A stretch of DNA of 36,865 bases. Source: Corynebacterium phoceense. GTDB lineage: Bacteria; Actinomycetota; Actinomycetes; Mycobacteriales; Mycobacteriaceae. Shown here in pieces: positions 5,156 through 20,676 of this stretch. The DNA lies in assembly GCF_900092335.1 (NCBI RefSeq), contig NZ_LT596208.1:1274170-1311034 (forward strand). Reading direction: 5' to 3'. Numbering within the stretch: position 1 is the first letter of the stretch; each line of letters begins with the position of its first letter. The notes under the pieces are model-generated. The model searched no databases. It had not been told where the DNA came from and was given only the letters and a program-made list of their open reading frames with translations. The position numbers were made by a program, and so were the translations under genes.

Positions 5156-5875
5156 ATGCTCATCGTCCTCCCACCTTCTGAAACCAAGGCGCCCGGAGGC
5201 ACCGGCGCCCCGCTTGACCTGGACTCTTTGTCCTTCCCGGAACTTAACCCGGCGCGCCGCGAAATCGCGGAAGTCTTAAGCTCCCTGGACCCCGACGAGG
5301 CGCTCAGCATCCTCAAGATTTCGCAGAAGCTGCGTGGGGAGGCCGTCGCCAACACGGAGCTCTCTACCTCCCCCACCATGCCCGCCCTTGAGCGCTACAC
5401 CGGCGTCCTCTACGACGCTTTGGACGCTCCCTCGCTTTCCGATGCCGCCCGCTCCCGCCTCGCCGTCGGCTCCGCCCTCTTCGGACTCGTCCGCGCAGGC
5501 GATCTCATTCCCCACTACCGACTGTCCGGCGGCACGAAACTCGAGGGCCGCACCATGAAATCGCGCTGGGGCTCGCTCATCACAGACGCGCTCACAAAGG
5601 TCCAGGATGAAGAACTCGTGGTCGACCTGCGCTCCGGCACGTACCAGCAGCTCGGCCGGCTCCAAGGCGCTGTGACCGCCCGCGTCGAGTCCGTGCAGGA
5701 GGACGGCTCCCGCAAGGTAGTCTCCCACTTCAATAAGCACTACAAGGGCCAGCTTGCCCGCGTGCTCGCGACCGCACCCTCGGAGGCCTACTCCATCGAC
5801 GACGTCGCCGCCCTTGCCCAGGCCGCAGGACTCACCACCGAAACCCGTCGAAACGAGCTCGTCCTCGTCATCTAA
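5156..5875 (+). CDS. yaaA: YaaA/DUF328 (UPF0246) family protein
   Basis: The 239-residue protein begins with the family hallmark MLIVLPPSETKAPGG. It carries the conserved core SALFGLVRAGDLIPHYRLSG and, near the C-terminus, HFNKHYKGQLARVLA. E. coli YaaA binds DNA and limits oxidative DNA damage by lowering free iron during peroxide stress; that role is carried over by homology only. The start is set by the N-terminal match and by the -10 six bases upstream, implying a leaderless mRNA. It diverges from proS. Confidence 0.88.
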   Translation: MLIVLPPSETKAPGGTGAPLDLDSLSFPELNPARREIAEVLSSLDPDEALSILKISQKLRGEAVANTELSTSPTMPALERYTGVLYDALDAPSLSDAARSRLAVGSALFGLVRAGDLIPHYRLSGGTKLEGRTMKSRWGSLITDALTKVQDEELVVDLRSGTYQQLGRLQGAVTARVESVQEDGSRKVVSHFNKHYKGQLARVLATAPSEAYSIDDVAALAQAAGLTTETRRNELVLVI

Positions 5876-15839: not shown

Positions 15840-17240
15840 TTGAACACCTCGAATACCAGCTCCCCCGCAACTCCGTCGGCGCATTACGACCTCATCATCA
15901 TCGGTACGGGCTCGGGAAATTCCATCCCCACCCCGGAGTACGACGATGTCTCCATCGCCATTATCGAGGAAGGCACGTTCGGCGGTACCTGCCTCAACGT
16001 CGGCTGCATCCCCACCAAGATGTATGTCTATGCCGCAGACGTCGCCCTTGCTGCACGCGAGGCAGGTCGTCTCGGACTCGATGCTCAGGTCAATAGCGTG
16101 GACTGGGACTCCATCGTTGACCGCGTCTTTACCAACCGCATCGACCGCATCGCGCAGGGCGGCGAAGCCTACCGCCGCGGCGACGAGACCCCGAACATCA
16201 CGGTCTATGACCAGCACGCCCGTTTCGTCGGCCCGAAGACCATCGAGGTCGGCGGCGAAGTCATCACCGGCGACCAGATCGTCATCGCCGCGGGCTCTCG
16301 CCCCACCATTCCGCCGGTCTACCGCAACTCTGGCGTGAAGTTCTACACCAACGAAGATGTCATGCGCATGCCCACACAGCCAAAGAGCCTCATCATCGTC
16401 GGCGGCGGCTACATCGCGATGGAGTTTGCCCACGTCTTCGACGGCCTGGGCACCAAGGTCACCATCGTCAACCGCTCAGAAAAGCTCTTGCGCTTCCTCG
16501 ATGAAGACCTTGTCACCCGTTTCAACGCCATCGCCCGGGAGCGCTTCGATATCCGCATCGGCAACGGCACTCTCCTCGAACAAACCGAGAACGGCGTCAA
16601 GCTCACCCTCGACAACGGCGAGACCGTTGAGGCCGACGCCATCCTCGTCGCCACCGGTCGCACCCCCAACGGCGATCTCATGGACGTGGACACCGCCGGC
16701 ATTGAAATGCACGAGGACGGTCGCATCAAGGTCGACGAGTACGGACGCACTACCGCCGAGGGCGTGTGGGCCCTGGGCGACGTCTCGTCGCCTTATATGC
16801 TCAAGCACGTCGCTAACGCTGAGACCCGTGCCATCTCGCACAACCTCCTGCACCACGACGACCTTCGCCCGATGCCGCACGAGCACGTCCCGTCTGCAAT
16901 CTTCACTCACCCGCAAATCGCCACCGTAGGCATGACCGAGGCTCAGGCTCGCGAGGCTGGCTACGACGTCACCGTCAAGGTCCAGAACTACGGCGACGTT
17001 GCCTACGGCTGGGCAATGGAGGACCACACCGGAATTGTGAAGCTCATCGCAGAACGCACCACCGGCAAACTCCTTGGCGCGCACTACTTCGGCCCTCAGG
17101 CATCCACGCTCATCCAGCAAATGATTACTGTGATGACATATGACCTCGATCTTCGCGACTTCGCGCGTAACCAGTACTGGATCCATCCGGCCCTTGCCGA
17201 GGTGACCGAGAACGCGATTTTAAGCCTCGAATTTGCCTAA
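15840..17240 (+). CDS. mtr: Mycothione reductase
   Basis: NADPH-dependent flavoenzyme that reduces mycothiol disulfide (mycothione), the actinobacterial counterpart of glutathione reductase. The 466 residues show the FAD-binding YDLIIIGTGSGNSIP (about 16-30), the redox-active GGTCLNVGC (C51 and C56), the NAD(P)H-binding SLIIVGGGYIAMEFAHVF, the ATGRTPNGD flavin motif and GVWALGDVSSPYMLKHVAN. The C-terminal dimer-interface motif YWIHPALAEVTENA contributes the His-Glu catalytic pair. The NSIP after the glycine motif is characteristic of mycothione reductases rather than other disulfide reductases. TTG is used as start, with AAAGGAG placed 7 nt upstream. Just after the stop lies a CRP/GlxR-like palindrome (17250-17265). 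Confidence 0.96.
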   Translation: MNTSNTSSPATPSAHYDLIIIGTGSGNSIPTPEYDDVSIAIIEEGTFGGTCLNVGCIPTKMYVYAADVALAAREAGRLGLDAQVNSVDWDSIVDRVFTNRIDRIAQGGEAYRRGDETPNITVYDQHARFVGPKTIEVGGEVITGDQIVIAAGSRPTIPPVYRNSGVKFYTNEDVMRMPTQPKSLIIVGGGYIAMEFAHVFDGLGTKVTIVNRSEKLLRFLDEDLVTRFNAIARERFDIRIGNGTLLEQTENGVKLTLDNGETVEADAILVATGRTPNGDLMDVDTAGIEMHEDGRIKVDEYGRTTAEGVWALGDVSSPYMLKHVANAETRAISHNLLHHDDLRPMPHEHVPSAIFTHPQIATVGMTEAQAREAGYDVTVKVQNYGDVAYGWAMEDHTGIVKLIAERTTGKLLGAHYFGPQASTLIQQMITVMTYDLDLRDFARNQYWIHPALAEVTENAILSLEFA

Positions 17241-17423
17241 TTAGCGTTACGTGACATAAATCACCCCCACCCCCTCTTGCCTAGTCACATGAGTAACATT
17301 CGTTACCTAACCTTGGGATTTAGAGAACGTCGCTGCCATGAACTTGACAGGATTATGGGGTGGATTTTTGCTTAACAGGCACTTAAACGCGCCGCCCGAC
17401 GTGCATATTCAGAATCGAACAGC
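17241..17423. other. Regulatory-looking gap upstream of the first secreted-protein cassette
   Basis: The 316-bp gap between mtr and the first A gene contains a CRP/GlxR-like palindrome, neighbouring C-tracts, an inverted repeat GTAAC-ATTC-GTTAC (17293-17306), a TTGACA hexamer (17344-17349) without a well-spaced -10, the TAGAGT promoter and a structured leader. I see no small coding region. Confidence 0.5.
17250..17265. promoter_or_regulatory. Putative GlxR (CRP-type) binding site
   Basis: The site reads CGTGACATAAATCACC. It matches the GlxR consensus TGTGA-N2-TA-N2-TCACA at every core base (GTGA, TA, TCAC) and differs only in the outermost pair. It lies 10 nt after mtr and about 170 bp upstream of the promoter of the first secreted-protein gene. 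Right beside it (17262-17275) two ACCCCC tracts resemble RamA half-sites. Confidence 0.5.
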
Positions 17424-17429
17424 TAGAGT
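17424..17429 (+). promoter_or_regulatory. -10 element (TAGAGT) of the A1-B1 cassette
   Basis: GCTAGAGTTC fits the corynebacterial GNTANANTN pattern. Transcription from here would give a leader of about 120 nt. Confidence 0.45.
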
Positions 17430-17479
17430 TCCCCAATGACACCGGCTCAAGCCGTAACACCGGCGACCGCGTGTTTCTG

Positions 17480-17526
17480 GAATTCCCCTGGGAATCCAAT
17501 AACACTTAGGTTTCCACCTGGAAGCC
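17480..17526 (+). promoter_or_regulatory. Two stem-loops in the leader of A1
   Basis: The first, about 17480-17498, is GGAATTCC-CCTG-GGAATCC with one bulged base. The second pairs GGTTTCC (17509-17515) with GGAAGCC (17520-17526). The second and the sequence TTAAGGA before the ATG recur upstream of A2. Confidence 0.5.
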
Positions 17527-17556
17527 TTGCAAGTACGACATTTAAGGACATTTGAT

Positions 17557-17961
17557 ATGCGTATCCGCAATGCAGCCATCGCCGGCGCAACCGCTCTCGC
17601 AGTCGCTTTCGGCGGCACCACCGTTGCTTCCGCTGAGGACACCGCCGCTCCGAAGCAGGAGCAGTCCTCCACCGCTAACGGCTCCTCCACCTCGGACAAC
17701 AAGGGTGAGTCCACCCCGGACGAGAAGGATGCCGCAAAGGGCGCTTCCCTCTCCTCCAAGATCAACACCGGCCTGAAGCTCGAGGGCGACAAGGAAGCTG
17801 ACGGCCAGAAGATCTTCGGCTCCTCCAAGGACCTGTCTGAGCAGCCGAAGTGGGCCAAGGTCCTGTACGGCACCACCATCGCCACCGCTATTGCCACCCT
17901 CATCGGCATGGTTGTCGGCCCGCTGGCTAACTTCGTTCAGTTCGGTCCCTTCTCCCGCTAA
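17557..17961 (+). CDS. Small secreted protein A1, first cassette (unknown function)
   Basis: The 134-residue precursor has a Sec signal peptide ending TTVASA (residue 26). A hydrophilic Ser/Thr/Lys/Glu-rich stretch (27-75) follows, then EADGQKIFG, SEQPKWAKVLYG and a hydrophobic helix (about 104-127) ending NFVQFGPFSR. The mature protein is probably exported and held by its C-terminal helix in the inner membrane or mycomembrane. I do not recognise a characterised family. It is paralogous to A2 at 18756 and more distantly to B1 and B2. TTAAGGA lies 9 nt before the ATG. B1 follows after 45 nt without a terminator, so A1 and B1 are likely co-transcribed. From memory, unverified, C. glutamicum has small secreted-protein genes in the same mtr-map interval. 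Confidence 0.85.
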   Translation: MRIRNAAIAGATALAVAFGGTTVASAEDTAAPKQEQSSTANGSSTSDNKGESTPDEKDAAKGASLSSKINTGLKLEGDKEADGQKIFGSSKDLSEQPKWAKVLYGTTIATAIATLIGMVVGPLANFVQFGPFSR

Positions 17962-18006
17962 ACGCAGCTCACCGGCTCACACCACTTTCGAAAGGTAAAA
18001 CACACA

Positions 18007-18441
18007 ATGCGTAACTTCCGCACCGCAGCCGTTGCTGCTGCCACCGCCGTCACCGTCGCTTTCGGCGGCACCGCTATCGCTTCCGCTGAGACGGGCGAGA
18101 AGCCGGCCAACAACGAGACCATCACCGAGAACCAGGACGTCACCAAGGACGCTACCGCCTCCGAGATTTTTGATGCTCTCTCCTCCAAGGACGAGAACTA
18201 CCCGACTGGGTCCTCTAAGGTTGGCGCTGTCACCGACAACAAGGTAAAAGCCAAGGGTACTGACCTCGTCGGCAAAGAGGTTAATGACGAGGCTAACCCG
18301 CAGTGGTCCAAGATCTGGCGCGACGGCACCTACGCCCTCATCGGCACCACCATTGCTGGCGCCCTGATCGCTGCCTACAACTTCGCTGTGTACAACCACA
18401 TCCTGCCGAACCACATCCTTGACCCGATCTTCAACCGCTAA
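18007..18441 (+). CDS. Small secreted protein B1, first cassette (unknown function)
   Basis: The 144-residue precursor has a Sec signal peptide ending TAIASA (residue 27). A polar linker is followed by the conserved block NPQWSKIWRDGTY and a hydrophobic helix (about 111-135) containing AAYNFAVYN, ending DPIFNR. It is paralogous to B2: the first 20 residues are nearly identical, and a 23-nt stretch coding for the YNFAVYN segment is identical in both (18374-18396 and 19464-19486). The layout of signal peptide, polar linker, PxW motif and terminal helix equals that of A1. The RBS is GAAAGG, about 11 nt before the ATG. A strong terminator follows at 18471. Function unknown. Confidence 0.85.
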   Translation: MRNFRTAAVAAATAVTVAFGGTAIASAETGEKPANNETITENQDVTKDATASEIFDALSSKDENYPTGSSKVGAVTDNKVKAKGTDLVGKEVNDEANPQWSKIWRDGTYALIGTTIAGALIAAYNFAVYNHILPNHILDPIFNR

Positions 18442-18470
18442 GCCACTCGCTTAGACGAAGACGTCTGGAT

Positions 18471-18502
18471 GAAGACCCGCACATTGTGCGGGTCTTCTTT
18501 TT
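18471..18502 (+). terminator. Terminator of the A1-B1 cassette
   Basis: GAAGACCCGCA pairs perfectly with TGCGGGTCTTC around CATTG and is followed directly by TTTTT. Confidence 0.93.
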
Positions 18503-18615
18503 GTCTTGATTCACCCAAATTTCATTCAGGCAGATAAATGGGGCTAACGCAGTAAATATTTATCTACCTGTAGGCGAATTGTTACCCCCATGCCCCTTTG
18601 CTGTGCGTAATGCTC
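18503..18615. other. Region upstream of the second cassette promoter
   Basis: Part of the 314-bp gap between B1 and A2. It is more AT-rich than the surrounding genes and contains a 13-bp imperfect inverted repeat (18527-18570). I see no coding region in it. Confidence 0.5.
18527..18570. repeat. 13-bp inverted repeat upstream of the A2 promoter
   Basis: CAGGCAGATAAAT (18527-18539) pairs with ATTTATCTACCTG (18558-18570) at 12 of 13 positions around an 18-nt centre. It ends 45 bp before the TATACT -10 element, a typical operator or activator position. Confidence 0.55.
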
Positions 18616-18621
18616 TATACT
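18616..18621 (+). promoter_or_regulatory. -10 element (TATACT) of the A2-B2 cassette
   Basis: TATACT is a strong corynebacterial -10 match. It would give a leader of about 128 nt, similar in length to that of A1. Confidence 0.55.
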
Positions 18622-18678
18622 TGCTAGCGCAACATCGACCGTCCGTTACATTTCCGTAATCGGACTCGAGATGCTCGA

Positions 18679-18725
18679 GAATCTCTTCGTGAGATTCACA
18701 CATGGGTTTCCTTCCCCCGGAAGCC
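18679..18725 (+). promoter_or_regulatory. Two stem-loops in the leader of A2
   Basis: GAATCTC-TTCGT-GAGATTC (18679-18697) is a perfect 7-bp stem. GGTTTCC (18705-18711) pairs with GGAAGCC (18719-18725), the same stem as upstream of A1 but with a different loop. TTAAGGA follows before the ATG. Confidence 0.55.
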
Positions 18726-18755
18726 GCGCACAGACAACTCTTAAGGATTTTTGAT

Positions 18756-19097
18756 ATGCGTATTCGCAAGGCCGCCATCGCTGGCGCAACCGCCCTCGCC
18801 GTCGCTTTCTCCGGCGCTTCCATCGCCACTGCGGCTGAGGCTCCTTCTGACCAGAACACCACCTCCTCCAACCAGACCGAGAACAAGGGTGGCTCCTCCA
18901 AGATCGGCGACGCTCTGGACGCCAACACGAACGCCGATGGCCGTAAAGTCTTCGGCCAGGACGCCGACGTTTCGTCCCAGCCGGCTTGGGCACAGGCTCT
19001 GTACGGCATCGGAATCGCTTCCGCCGTCGTCACCGTCATCGGTGGCCTCGTCGGTCCGGCCCTGAACTTCATCAAGTTCGGCCCCATCAAGTTCTAG
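18756..19097 (+). CDS. Small secreted protein A2, second cassette (unknown function)
   Basis: The 113-residue precursor has a Sec signal peptide ending ASIATA (residue 26), a shorter polar linker than A1, then NADGRKVFG, SSQPAWAQALYG and a hydrophobic helix (about 83-106) ending NFIKFGPIKF. The conserved A-type pattern shared with A1 is ADGxKxFG, then QPxWAxxLYG, then VGPxxNFxxFGP. The signal-peptide coding sequence is nearly identical to A1, while the linker has diverged in length and composition, as expected for an exposed region. ATG 18756 is preceded by TTAAGGA, as in A1. B2 follows after 50 nt. Confidence 0.85.
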   Translation: MRIRKAAIAGATALAVAFSGASIATAAEAPSDQNTTSSNQTENKGGSSKIGDALDANTNADGRKVFGQDADVSSQPAWAQALYGIGIASAVVTVIGGLVGPALNFIKFGPIKF

Positions 19098-19147
19098 TAA
19101 CGGCCTTACAGCCCCTACCAAAATCTTTTTGAAAGGTATTCACTTCA

Positions 19148-19540
19148 ATGCGTAACTTCCGCACTGCCGCCGTTGCTCTTGCAACCGCCACCACCGTCGC
19201 TTTCGGCGGCGTTTCCGCTGCTACCGCTGCCGAGACCGAGAACACCGGCGCTCTGTCTGCCGCCGCTAAGGGCGCTTCCTCCGAGGGCGAGGGTTCGCTG
19301 TCCTCCAAGGCTGGCGATGCTACCGGCAAAGACACCCCTGCCAACGGCCGCGACCTGCTCGGCTCTTCCGTCGACGACGATAAGAACCCGCAGTGGGCTC
19401 AGCTGTGGCGCGACACCACCTACGTCGGTGTTGCCGCTGCTGCTGTCTCCGTTGCCGTCGCAACCTACAACTTCGCTGTGTACAACGGCGTTATCCCTGA
19501 CTACGTTGCTCAGGCAATGAACGGTCAGCTGAAGTTCTAA
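19148..19540 (+). CDS. Small secreted protein B2, second cassette (unknown function)
   Basis: The 130-residue precursor has a Sec signal peptide ending VSAATA (residue 27). A polar linker rich in Ser, Gly and Lys is followed by NPQWAQLWRDTTY and a hydrophobic helix (about 98-121) with ATYNFAVYNGVIP, ending NGQLKF. It is paralogous to B1. The order A-B-A-B with matching leaders shows duplication of a whole two-gene unit. The RBS is GAAAGG, with the ATG about 12 nt downstream. Two hairpins follow, the first a clear terminator. Confidence 0.85.
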   Translation: MRNFRTAAVALATATTVAFGGVSAATAAETENTGALSAAAKGASSEGEGSLSSKAGDATGKDTPANGRDLLGSSVDDDKNPQWAQLWRDTTYVGVAAAAVSVAVATYNFAVYNGVIPDYVAQAMNGQLKF

Positions 19541-19561
19541 TGTAGAACCTTCACGCCTTCA

Positions 19562-19588
19562 AGCGCTCCGCACTGCGGGGCGCTTTTT
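19562..19588 (+). terminator. Terminator of the A2-B2 cassette
   Basis: AGCGCTCCGC pairs with GCGGGGCGCT (one G-U pair) around a 3-nt loop and runs into TTTTT. Confidence 0.9.
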
Positions 19589-19729: not shown

Positions 19730-20602
19730 TTAGTCTTCGTCGGGAAGAGTGAGGATTTCCGGCTCGCCCTCTTCCTGGATGACGAGGGTGTGCTCGAACT
19801 GAGCGGTGAACTTTCCGTCCTTGTTCTGGACGGTCCAGTCGTTATCCCAGATCTCGTAGTCGAGGCCTCCGAGGTTAATCATCGGCTCGATGGTGAGCGT
19901 CATGCCCGGCTCCAGTACGTTTCGGTAGGCCATGGAGTCGTAATGCAGGACAACGAGGCCGTTGTGGAACGTGGGCCCCACACCGTGGCCGGTGAAGTCG
20001 GTAACGACGTTGTAGCCGAAGCGGTGTGCGTAGGACTCGATAACGCGGCCGATGACGTTAATCTCGCGACCAGCCTTGGCGACCTTGATGCCGCGCATCA
20101 TAGCTTCCTTGGTGCGTTCGACAAGCAGCCGGTGCTCTTCGGAGACGTTGCCAGCGAGGAAGGTGGCGTTGGTGTCGCCGTGGACGCCGTTCTTGTAGGC
20201 GGTGACGTCAATGTTGACGATGTCGCCGTCCTCGATGACGGTCGTGTCCGGAATGCCGTGGCACACGATCTCATTCAAGGAGACGCAGCAGGACTTCGGG
20301 AAGTTCATGTAGCCCAGGGTCGACGGGTAAGCACCATGGTCGCACATGTACTCGTGCGCAATGCGGTCGATCTCGTCGGTGGTCACGCCGGGGGCGACAG
20401 CCTTGCCCGCTTCTTTGAGGGCGTTGGCGGCAATCTTGGACGACTCGCGCATGGCCTCGATGACCTCAGGGGTCTGAACGAAAGGTTCGCCGATGTTTTC
20501 TTGGACCGAGTCCTTCCACACGTACTCGGGACGCTCGATAGAGTCAGGGACGGTGCGAACGGGGGTGGGCTTTCCTGGGGTAAGTTTTGCGCGATTGCTC
20601 AT
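19730..20602 (-). CDS. map: Methionine aminopeptidase, type I with N-terminal extension
   Basis: Removes the initiator methionine from nascent proteins. The 290 residues carry the five metal ligands of the pita-bread fold: D132 (NIDVTAY), D143 (GDTNATF), H206 (TGHGVG), E239 (IEPMI) and E270 (QFEHTLVI), plus H115 in the substrate site. The first 40 residues form the Pro-rich N-terminal extension ([11 protein letters not shown]) typical of actinobacterial type Ic enzymes, which is thought to contact the ribosome. ATG 20602 is chosen because the extension then has its usual length, and TACCAT (20615-20610) ends 7 nt before it. It follows the PBP gene on the same strand. Confidence 0.96.
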
Positions 20603-20676
20603 GCCGTCTATGGTAGTCCCCCACCCTGCCACCCCGGCGGTCGGGTTGGGCGGCGGCGATGAGGGGCATCGGCAAG

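Follow-up and report, generated by a model that had tools for sequence, protein, structure and literature searches.

Known two-gene envelope systems and the locus between mtr and map

Several small exported or envelope-associated proteins of corynebacteria form the described background for the four-gene locus reported here, which lies at positions 17557-19540 of a 36,865-nucleotide stretch (hereafter the window) of contig NZ_LT596208.1 of Corynebacterium phoceense. PorA and PorH are described, in the cited parts of two accounts, as small helical envelope proteins encoded by adjacent co-transcribed genes and thought to form a two-component complex (PMC12632848, PMC5310785). According to the relevant section of the latter, PorB and PorC are the products of co-transcribed related genes, have 126 and 123 amino acids, carry putative Sec signals and serine-rich ends, and show evidence of mycoloylation. 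PS2 (CspB), an S-layer protein, has a signal peptide, and its disordered region is followed by a hydrophobic C-terminal segment of about 25 amino acids that ends in Phe after Pro or Lys (PMC12021427, in the part cited).

The host genome (G000) is a 2.79-Mb Corynebacterium genome. The locus consists of four genes in the order A1-B1-A2-B2, all on the forward strand, between mtr on the left and map on the right:

15840-17240, forward strand: mtr (mycothione reductase), conserved left neighbour
17557-17961, forward strand: A1, 134 amino acids, exported, with a single C-terminal helix; matches the A-protein profile and has the highest codon adaptation among the 24 window genes
18007-18441, forward strand: B1, 144 amino acids, paralogue of A1; starts 45 nt past the A1 stop
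18756-19097, forward strand: A2, 113 amino acids, A gene of the second cassette; groups with second-copy A genes from four other genomes
19148-19540, forward strand: B2, 130 amino acids, B gene of the second cassette, 50 nt past the A2 stop; groups with second-copy B genes from four other genomes
19730-20632, reverse strand: map (methionine aminopeptidase), conserved right neighbour

The two cassettes are separated by 314 nt, and 189 nt lie between B2 and map. An earlier note on this DNA had described an alternating, duplicated two-gene cassette for small secreted proteins, and the four reading frames, with precursors of 113-144 residues, bear this out. Codon adaptation of all four, together with matches to the family in 121 further Corynebacterium genomes, rules out chance reading frames. 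The best explanation, which taken as a whole has an even chance of being right, is that every A-B cassette forms an operon of two genes encoding two paralogous subunits of one complex.

A and B resemble PorA/PorH in that two adjacent genes are kept together. For this comparison 94 loci were read (the window, 75 and a further 18), all of them selected for having matches. Two or four members stood at 90 of the 94 at a 20-bit line, and at 88 of 93 at a 25-bit line with a recognisable start, the exceptions being L072, L097, L103, L129 and L135. In contrast, PorA and PorH have 45 and 57 residues and no signal sequence, as far as the cited part of PMC5310785 describes them, whereas the proteins encoded here have 113-144 residues and a conserved signal peptide. 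The likeness thus lies in the pairing; no family tie is claimed, and PorA/PorH were compared by their description. In the C. glutamicum genome (G194) the PorH gene maps to 2.89 Mb and the A/B pair to 2.12 Mb. That PorH is identical over 57 residues to what we take to be the C. glutamicum PorH sequence.

PorB, of which a structure has been published, differs from A and B in having a four-helix domain with a disulfide (PMC5310785, in the section cited), whereas A and B have one long helix and any cysteine at all in only 10 of 180 rows. PorB was not among the PDB matches up to E 10 of the A and B profiles or of the C. glutamicum A protein, in a database copy whose content of PorB was unchecked. 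With PS2, A and B would share, as modelled, a disordered linker followed by a hydrophobic segment near the C-terminus. PS2 has a large surface domain that A and B lack, and the invariant terminal Phe of the PS2 type is not kept (out of 90 proteins each, 22 A and 20 B proteins end in it). The closest approach to PS2 is the B product of genome G122 (L125:3011-4933, reverse strand), a protein of 640 amino acids with the usual signal peptide and tail, in which the linker is replaced by a long Ala/Glu/Lys-rich insert that looks helix-prone by eye. This fits a spacer plus an anchor, recalls the stalk-plus-anchor plan of PS2 and is closer to it than the ordinary A and B.

Kinship and paired inheritance of A and B

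All four proteins align end to end. An hhalign comparison of an A profile with a B profile, each built from 33 proteins, gave a match over 116 columns with a probability of 99.8% and an E-value of 2.5e-30. Part of this similarity is contributed by the signal peptide; a profile of the mature C-terminal part alone still scores both genes of the pairs. These comparisons show A and B to be paralogues and not partners of unrelated origin.

Both follow a common plan: a signal peptide, a variable polar linker, the motifs G..(I/L)FG and P.W(A), and a long C-terminal helix, close to the end of which stands a near-invariant Asn (63 of 64 A rows and 63 of 63 B rows; the alignment profiles A6 and A7 hold 64 and 63 rows out of 90). 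These parts were placed as follows:

17557-17634, forward strand: signal peptide of A1, with cleavage assumed by eye after residue 26
17848-17943, forward strand: C-terminal helix of A1, mature residues 72-103, from AlphaFold2 and the small-residue columns
18301-18393, forward strand: C-terminal helix of B1, mature residues 72-102, from AlphaFold2, with a similar stripe of small residues

The signal peptides of the four proteins look alike by eye. When 90 pairs drawn from this genome and its relatives are compared, conservation is highest in the signal peptide (3.2 and 3.0 bits per column in A and B), lower in the helices (2.6 and 2.2) and lowest in the linkers (1.1). The 90-pair set was obtained after exclusion by hand of L072, L097, L103, L123, L125, L129, L167 and L179, and L135 yields no pair, having stops in B. 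Its proteins are 86-200 amino acids long, mostly 100-200, with gene starts in relatives that were chosen by script and are approximate.

No Pfam or NCBIfam family scored above its curated cut-off; the lowest E-value belonged to GDT1 for A1, at 19.1 of the 27 bits needed. In PDB searches the A profile had PS2 as its sole match (E 0.12), covering only the signal peptide and the start of the linker, the B profile had three matches with E-values between 0.37 and 1.4, which include PS2 and of which none is convincing, and the C. glutamicum A protein had zero matches up to E 10. A known domain family was therefore rejected as the identity of A and B.

The mature-domain profile (A4, built from 60 of 119 dereplicated rows) matched 122 of 242 Corynebacterium genomes. 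Two or more matches were found in 117 of these 122 and a single one in five, among them G118 with a 62-codon relic between mtr and map, G237 with a 69-codon frame, G150 with a weak match and G131, where the contig ends inside B. In a sample of the order comprising 298 genomes from 76 genera, three genomes matched and all three were Corynebacterium. Judged by these profile matches, the family is confined to Corynebacterium within that sample rather than spread across the Corynebacteriales. Broken members occur as well: stops lie inside B in G142 (L135), and A is in pieces in G074 (L103), with like pieces in G256, the partner being still matched. A third and distant match, lying apart from the pair, was seen at G194:C1:3217524-3217700 and in ten further genomes.

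The setting is also conserved. Both mtr and map flank the members within the fetched stretch at 65 of 94 loci, sometimes with another gene between; mtr lies upstream at 68 of 94, and within 600 nt at 64 of 93. Of the 90 pairs, 88 have 28-79 nt between the stop of the first gene and the start of the second; the remaining two have gaps of 207 and 211 nt. In diverged species the profile labels blur, giving A-A, B-B or B-A at 15 of 94 loci (two of them mtr-B-B-map), so that in these species "A" and "B" mean the first and the second gene. Pairing of A and B in genomes is thus well supported, as the earlier note had proposed, and it is very probable that the two work as a pair. Its author had named frequent solitary members, or a characterised family, as findings that would speak against the proposal; lone A or B genes are not frequent, and the libraries searched contained no characterised family for either.

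The order ABAB was found at 5 of 94 loci. Trees were built from 31 of the 90 pairs, chosen by hand around the doubled species; their backbone is poorly resolved, with 12 (A) and 8 (B) inner branches open. The A genes of second copies fall into a single clade (96/83), as do the B genes of second copies (93/80, or 98/92 with L178); one duplication of the cassette suffices for this. L178 (G214) has only one pair, which joins the second-copy clade (100/99 for A and 98/92 for B), while L096 and L118, with one cassette each, nest with the first copies of the doubled species. At L091 the first pair is closest to L064/L113 in both genes (A 74/68%, B 76/82%), and the second has 89% (A) and 93-94% (B) identity with that of L069/L108, as if the first cassette had been exchanged whole. 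The trees fit one duplication of the whole cassette, as first proposed, after which entire cassettes would have been lost or exchanged. The doubled cassette may then give two diverged versions of the complex.

A search of the window genome with the signal-peptide profile returned six genes, namely A1, B1, A2, B2 and two encoding small exported proteins at a second locus (L137:4916-5266 and 5416-5661; G000:C2, about 1107.9-1108.7 kb). This second pair has the same class of signal peptide and a C-terminal EIRDWI helix, sits downstream of a peptidyl-prolyl isomerase-like gene, and has similar proteins in L138-L140; its first protein was without a PDB match below E 0.5. Nearby, L137:6564-8462 (reverse strand) encodes what by eye is a 5'-nucleotidase-like protein; it has a stretch rich in Ser and Gly as well as a hydrophobic segment at the C-terminus, and resembles the PS2-type anchored proteins in the cited part of PMC12021427.

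Expression and the C. glutamicum orthologues

In G194 a single cassette follows mtr, and a gene for a membrane protein lies between B and map. C. glutamicum Mtr is given as NCgl1928 and cg2194 in the relevant parts of PMC4935862 and PMC3489674; A, being the next gene, is NCgl1929 by place. The strong promoter P180 is described as a 180-bp intergenic fragment of cg2195 (PMC6303301, in the part cited), a description that fits NCgl1929 being cg2195. By profile and place, therefore, the C. glutamicum orthologues of A and B are taken to be cg2195 and cg2196 (NCgl1929 and the next gene). Within one RNA-seq set, NCgl1929 headed the test group with 27617 transcripts per million (PMC7268698, portion cited). 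Among the open-licence papers listed in a search there was no protein study of cg2195/cg2196, only the promoter source and the transcript.

In the window, the codon adaptation index, calculated against tsf and rpsB as reference, was 0.835 for A1 (rank 1 of 24 genes) and 0.752, 0.743 and 0.706 for B2, B1 and A2 (ranks 4, 5 and 6), compared with 0.562 for map and 0.554 for mtr. With a codon bias like that of tsf and rpsB and the top transcript of NCgl1929, A and B look abundant, as had been suspected from their leaders and terminators.

The earlier note had also assigned a promoter, a long leader and a strong terminator to each pair. The candidate elements are:

17424-17429, forward strand: candidate -10 element TAGAGT of cassette 1, found by eye against TANANT and missed by the promoter scan
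17438-17556, forward strand: probable 5' leader of cassette 1, with a hairpin at 17508-17527 and a fold z of -2.2
18471-18497, forward strand: intrinsic terminator 3' of B1, with a 12-bp stem followed by TTTTT
18616-18621, forward strand: candidate -10 element TATACT of cassette 2, found by eye and missed by the promoter scan
18629-18755, forward strand: probable 5' leader of cassette 2, with a hairpin at 18705-18725 and a fold z of -2.8
19561-19585, forward strand: intrinsic terminator 3' of B2, with an 11-bp stem followed by a T-run

Strong terminators do follow B1 and B2. The scan counted five terminator-like sites against 4.0 +/- 2.0 in shuffled sequences, a total near the shuffle level, so that the weight lies only in the length and place of the two terminators after B1 and B2. 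A separate promoter for each cassette is plausible: the consensus promoter scan returned zero sites on the forward strand, and both candidates fit TANANT, which we take to be the -10 consensus. They would imply leaders of about 120-130 nt. Between mtr and the A1 leader, positions 17251-17264 (GTGACATAAATCAC) resemble what we presume to be the GlxR site, TGTGA-N6-TCACA.

In both leaders a hairpin lies close to the start codon, and 67 mtr-linked leaders had a mean fold z of -1.55 against mononucleotide shuffles, calculated over the 62 nt whose end lies 18 nt ahead of the start. Among 16 leaders with a TTGC...TACGA anchor the stem exchanges GC for AU and UA for CG; these were picked by the anchor and are related to one another, and a few fold otherwise. 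Alignment of the leaders with MAFFT and folding with RNAalifold gave eight pairs, none compensated, and did not recover the hairpin of cassette 1. The last leader hairpin is GGTTTCC/GGAAGCC, other paired forms such as GCCTCC/GGAGGC occur in relatives, and a conserved stretch TTGCA.GTACGAC stands between it and the ribosome site. A search of leaders and ends for known RNA families gave seven matches up to E 1, all under the gathering scores.

Membrane placement and competing explanations

A and B are almost certainly exported proteins with one helix. For mature A1, AlphaFold2 predicted a helix at residues 72-103 of 108, with block values of the predicted local distance difference test of 84-96 from residue 61 and of 54-68 in the linker; for B1 it predicted a helix at 72-102, with blocks up to 92 and lower values elsewhere. 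Small residues occupy columns 81, 84, 88, 91 and 95 in both A and B (75-100% of rows), as well as 85 (in A) and 87, with a helical periodicity (p 0.038 for A and 0.007 for B in column permutations). Across columns 80-97 of the helix, only 0-2% of A and B rows have a residue that is charged or strongly polar, except at B columns 81 (5%) and 82 (14%). Charged residues at the helix start, Arg/Lys and Asp at columns 78-79 (57% and 65%), are found in B only. Among the 45 linker residues that precede the Trp, LSS or GSS occurs in 55 of 64 A rows and 52 of 63 B rows, compared with shuffled means of 6.9 (A) and 5.0 (B) and maxima of 13 and 12.

Taken together, these features make an abundant, exported, two-subunit envelope complex specific to Corynebacterium about as probable as all other readings combined. 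The signal peptide would export A and B, placing the variable polar linker within the wall zone or beyond it; the two helices would pack through their shared Gly/Ala/Ser/Thr stripe. A hetero-oligomer of A and B is on balance probable, and the membrane concerned is, with rather less assurance, probably the mycomembrane; a mycomembrane hetero-oligomer as such stands at about an even chance. The serines of LSS/GSS may be O-mycoloylated by Cmt1/MytC, as in PorA/PorH and PorB/PorC; we rate this slightly below an even chance. Mapped O-mycoloylation sites are Ser, less often Thr, amid Ser, Gly and Ala, with no strict consensus (PMC11066868, in the part cited), and the LSS/GSS enrichment counts for such a modification because it resembles these Ser/Gly-rich sites. 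Pks13 (NF040607, absence being called at a self-drawn line of 1e-20) was absent from 14 of 242 genomes. Twelve of these are more than 80% complete and none of the twelve has A/B, which fits a role in the mycomembrane, with the reservation that they may be one clade and that the count ignores relatedness. The other two are G078 (77% complete), with A/B, and G119 (53%), without.

Beside the possible kinship of the Pks13-less genomes, several observations weigh against such a complex. The family is absent from 120 of the 242 genomes, nearly all with Pks13, so A and B are not essential to a mycomembrane. Among the single-match genomes G023 has a lone B-like gene, and the third distant matches, seen in several genomes, span about model positions 4-71 (6-66 in G194) without the tail end. 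The AlphaFold2 models are of single chains, with predicted template modelling scores of 0.45 (A1) and 0.34 (B1), and the permutations behind the helical periodicity of the small residues take no account of relatedness. The curated table of 27 O-mycoloylated proteins in the cited part of PMC11066868 has no entry identifiable as A or B, the Cgl numbers of cg2195/cg2196 not being established; its authors call the method less than ideal where proteins are small. As membrane segments the helices have marginal hydrophobicity, with median insertion energies (dG) of +0.74 (A) and +2.14 (B), compared with -1.08 for 23 segments from four membrane proteins of the window, themselves chosen for low dG, and -0.86 for the anchor of an exported enzyme of the window genome. 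Finally, the mean net charge is negative before the helix and positive in the tail, which fits a plain type I protein of the plasma membrane too; neither the segment energies nor the charges tell the two membranes apart.

In that last case A and B would be held by a C-terminal stop-transfer anchor with the linker on the wall side, and the pair would serve secretion, wall synthesis or envelope sensing. The charge pattern and the median hydropathy of the C-terminal segments (2.03 and 1.91 on the Kyte-Doolittle scale over 19 residues) favour this; the marginal insertion energies, that of B above all, and the lack of the family in the 12 near-complete Pks13-less genomes, few and possibly related as they are, speak against it, and we consider it rather unlikely. 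A two-component porin, in which A and B would form a hetero-oligomeric mycomembrane channel, finds its precedent in PorA/PorH (PMC12632848, part cited) and agrees with the small size, helical nature and pairing of the proteins, with the constant gene order and with the strong codon adaptation. It is nevertheless improbable: a helix core without a polar face favours packing and counts against a water-filled pore, and C. glutamicum (G194) has both PorH and the A/B family. Tandem genes for two small secreted proteins with Gly/Ala-rich helices also recall two-peptide bacteriocins or other antagonistic peptides. This is very improbable, given that mtr and map flank 65 of 94 loci, that the 189 nt from B2 to map leave no space for an immunity gene there, and that the proteins mostly have 100-200 amino acids and a codon bias like that of ribosomal proteins.

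Within the preferred reading of a two-subunit envelope complex, a packed anchor or scaffold, such as an envelope coat or a link from the wall to the mycomembrane, would be favoured over an ion-conducting pore for the same lack of a polar face. The earlier interpretation is partly supported, and the observation behind it is confirmed. A bolder and rather improbable suggestion is a two-subunit mycomembrane scaffold peculiar to Corynebacterium and encoded in C. glutamicum by the most transcribed gene and its neighbour: paralogous exported tail-helix proteins, with helices locked by the stripe, mycolic acids on the linkers, and a signal-peptide class common to the second small pair.

The paired inheritance of A and B points to an obligate partnership. 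In the industrial workhorse C. glutamicum they are a top-expressed gene pair, and the pair is also present in several human-associated Corynebacterium species. If the suggested scaffold is real, its role in the mycomembrane would correspond to that of Lpp or OmpA in the outer membrane of Gram-negative bacteria.

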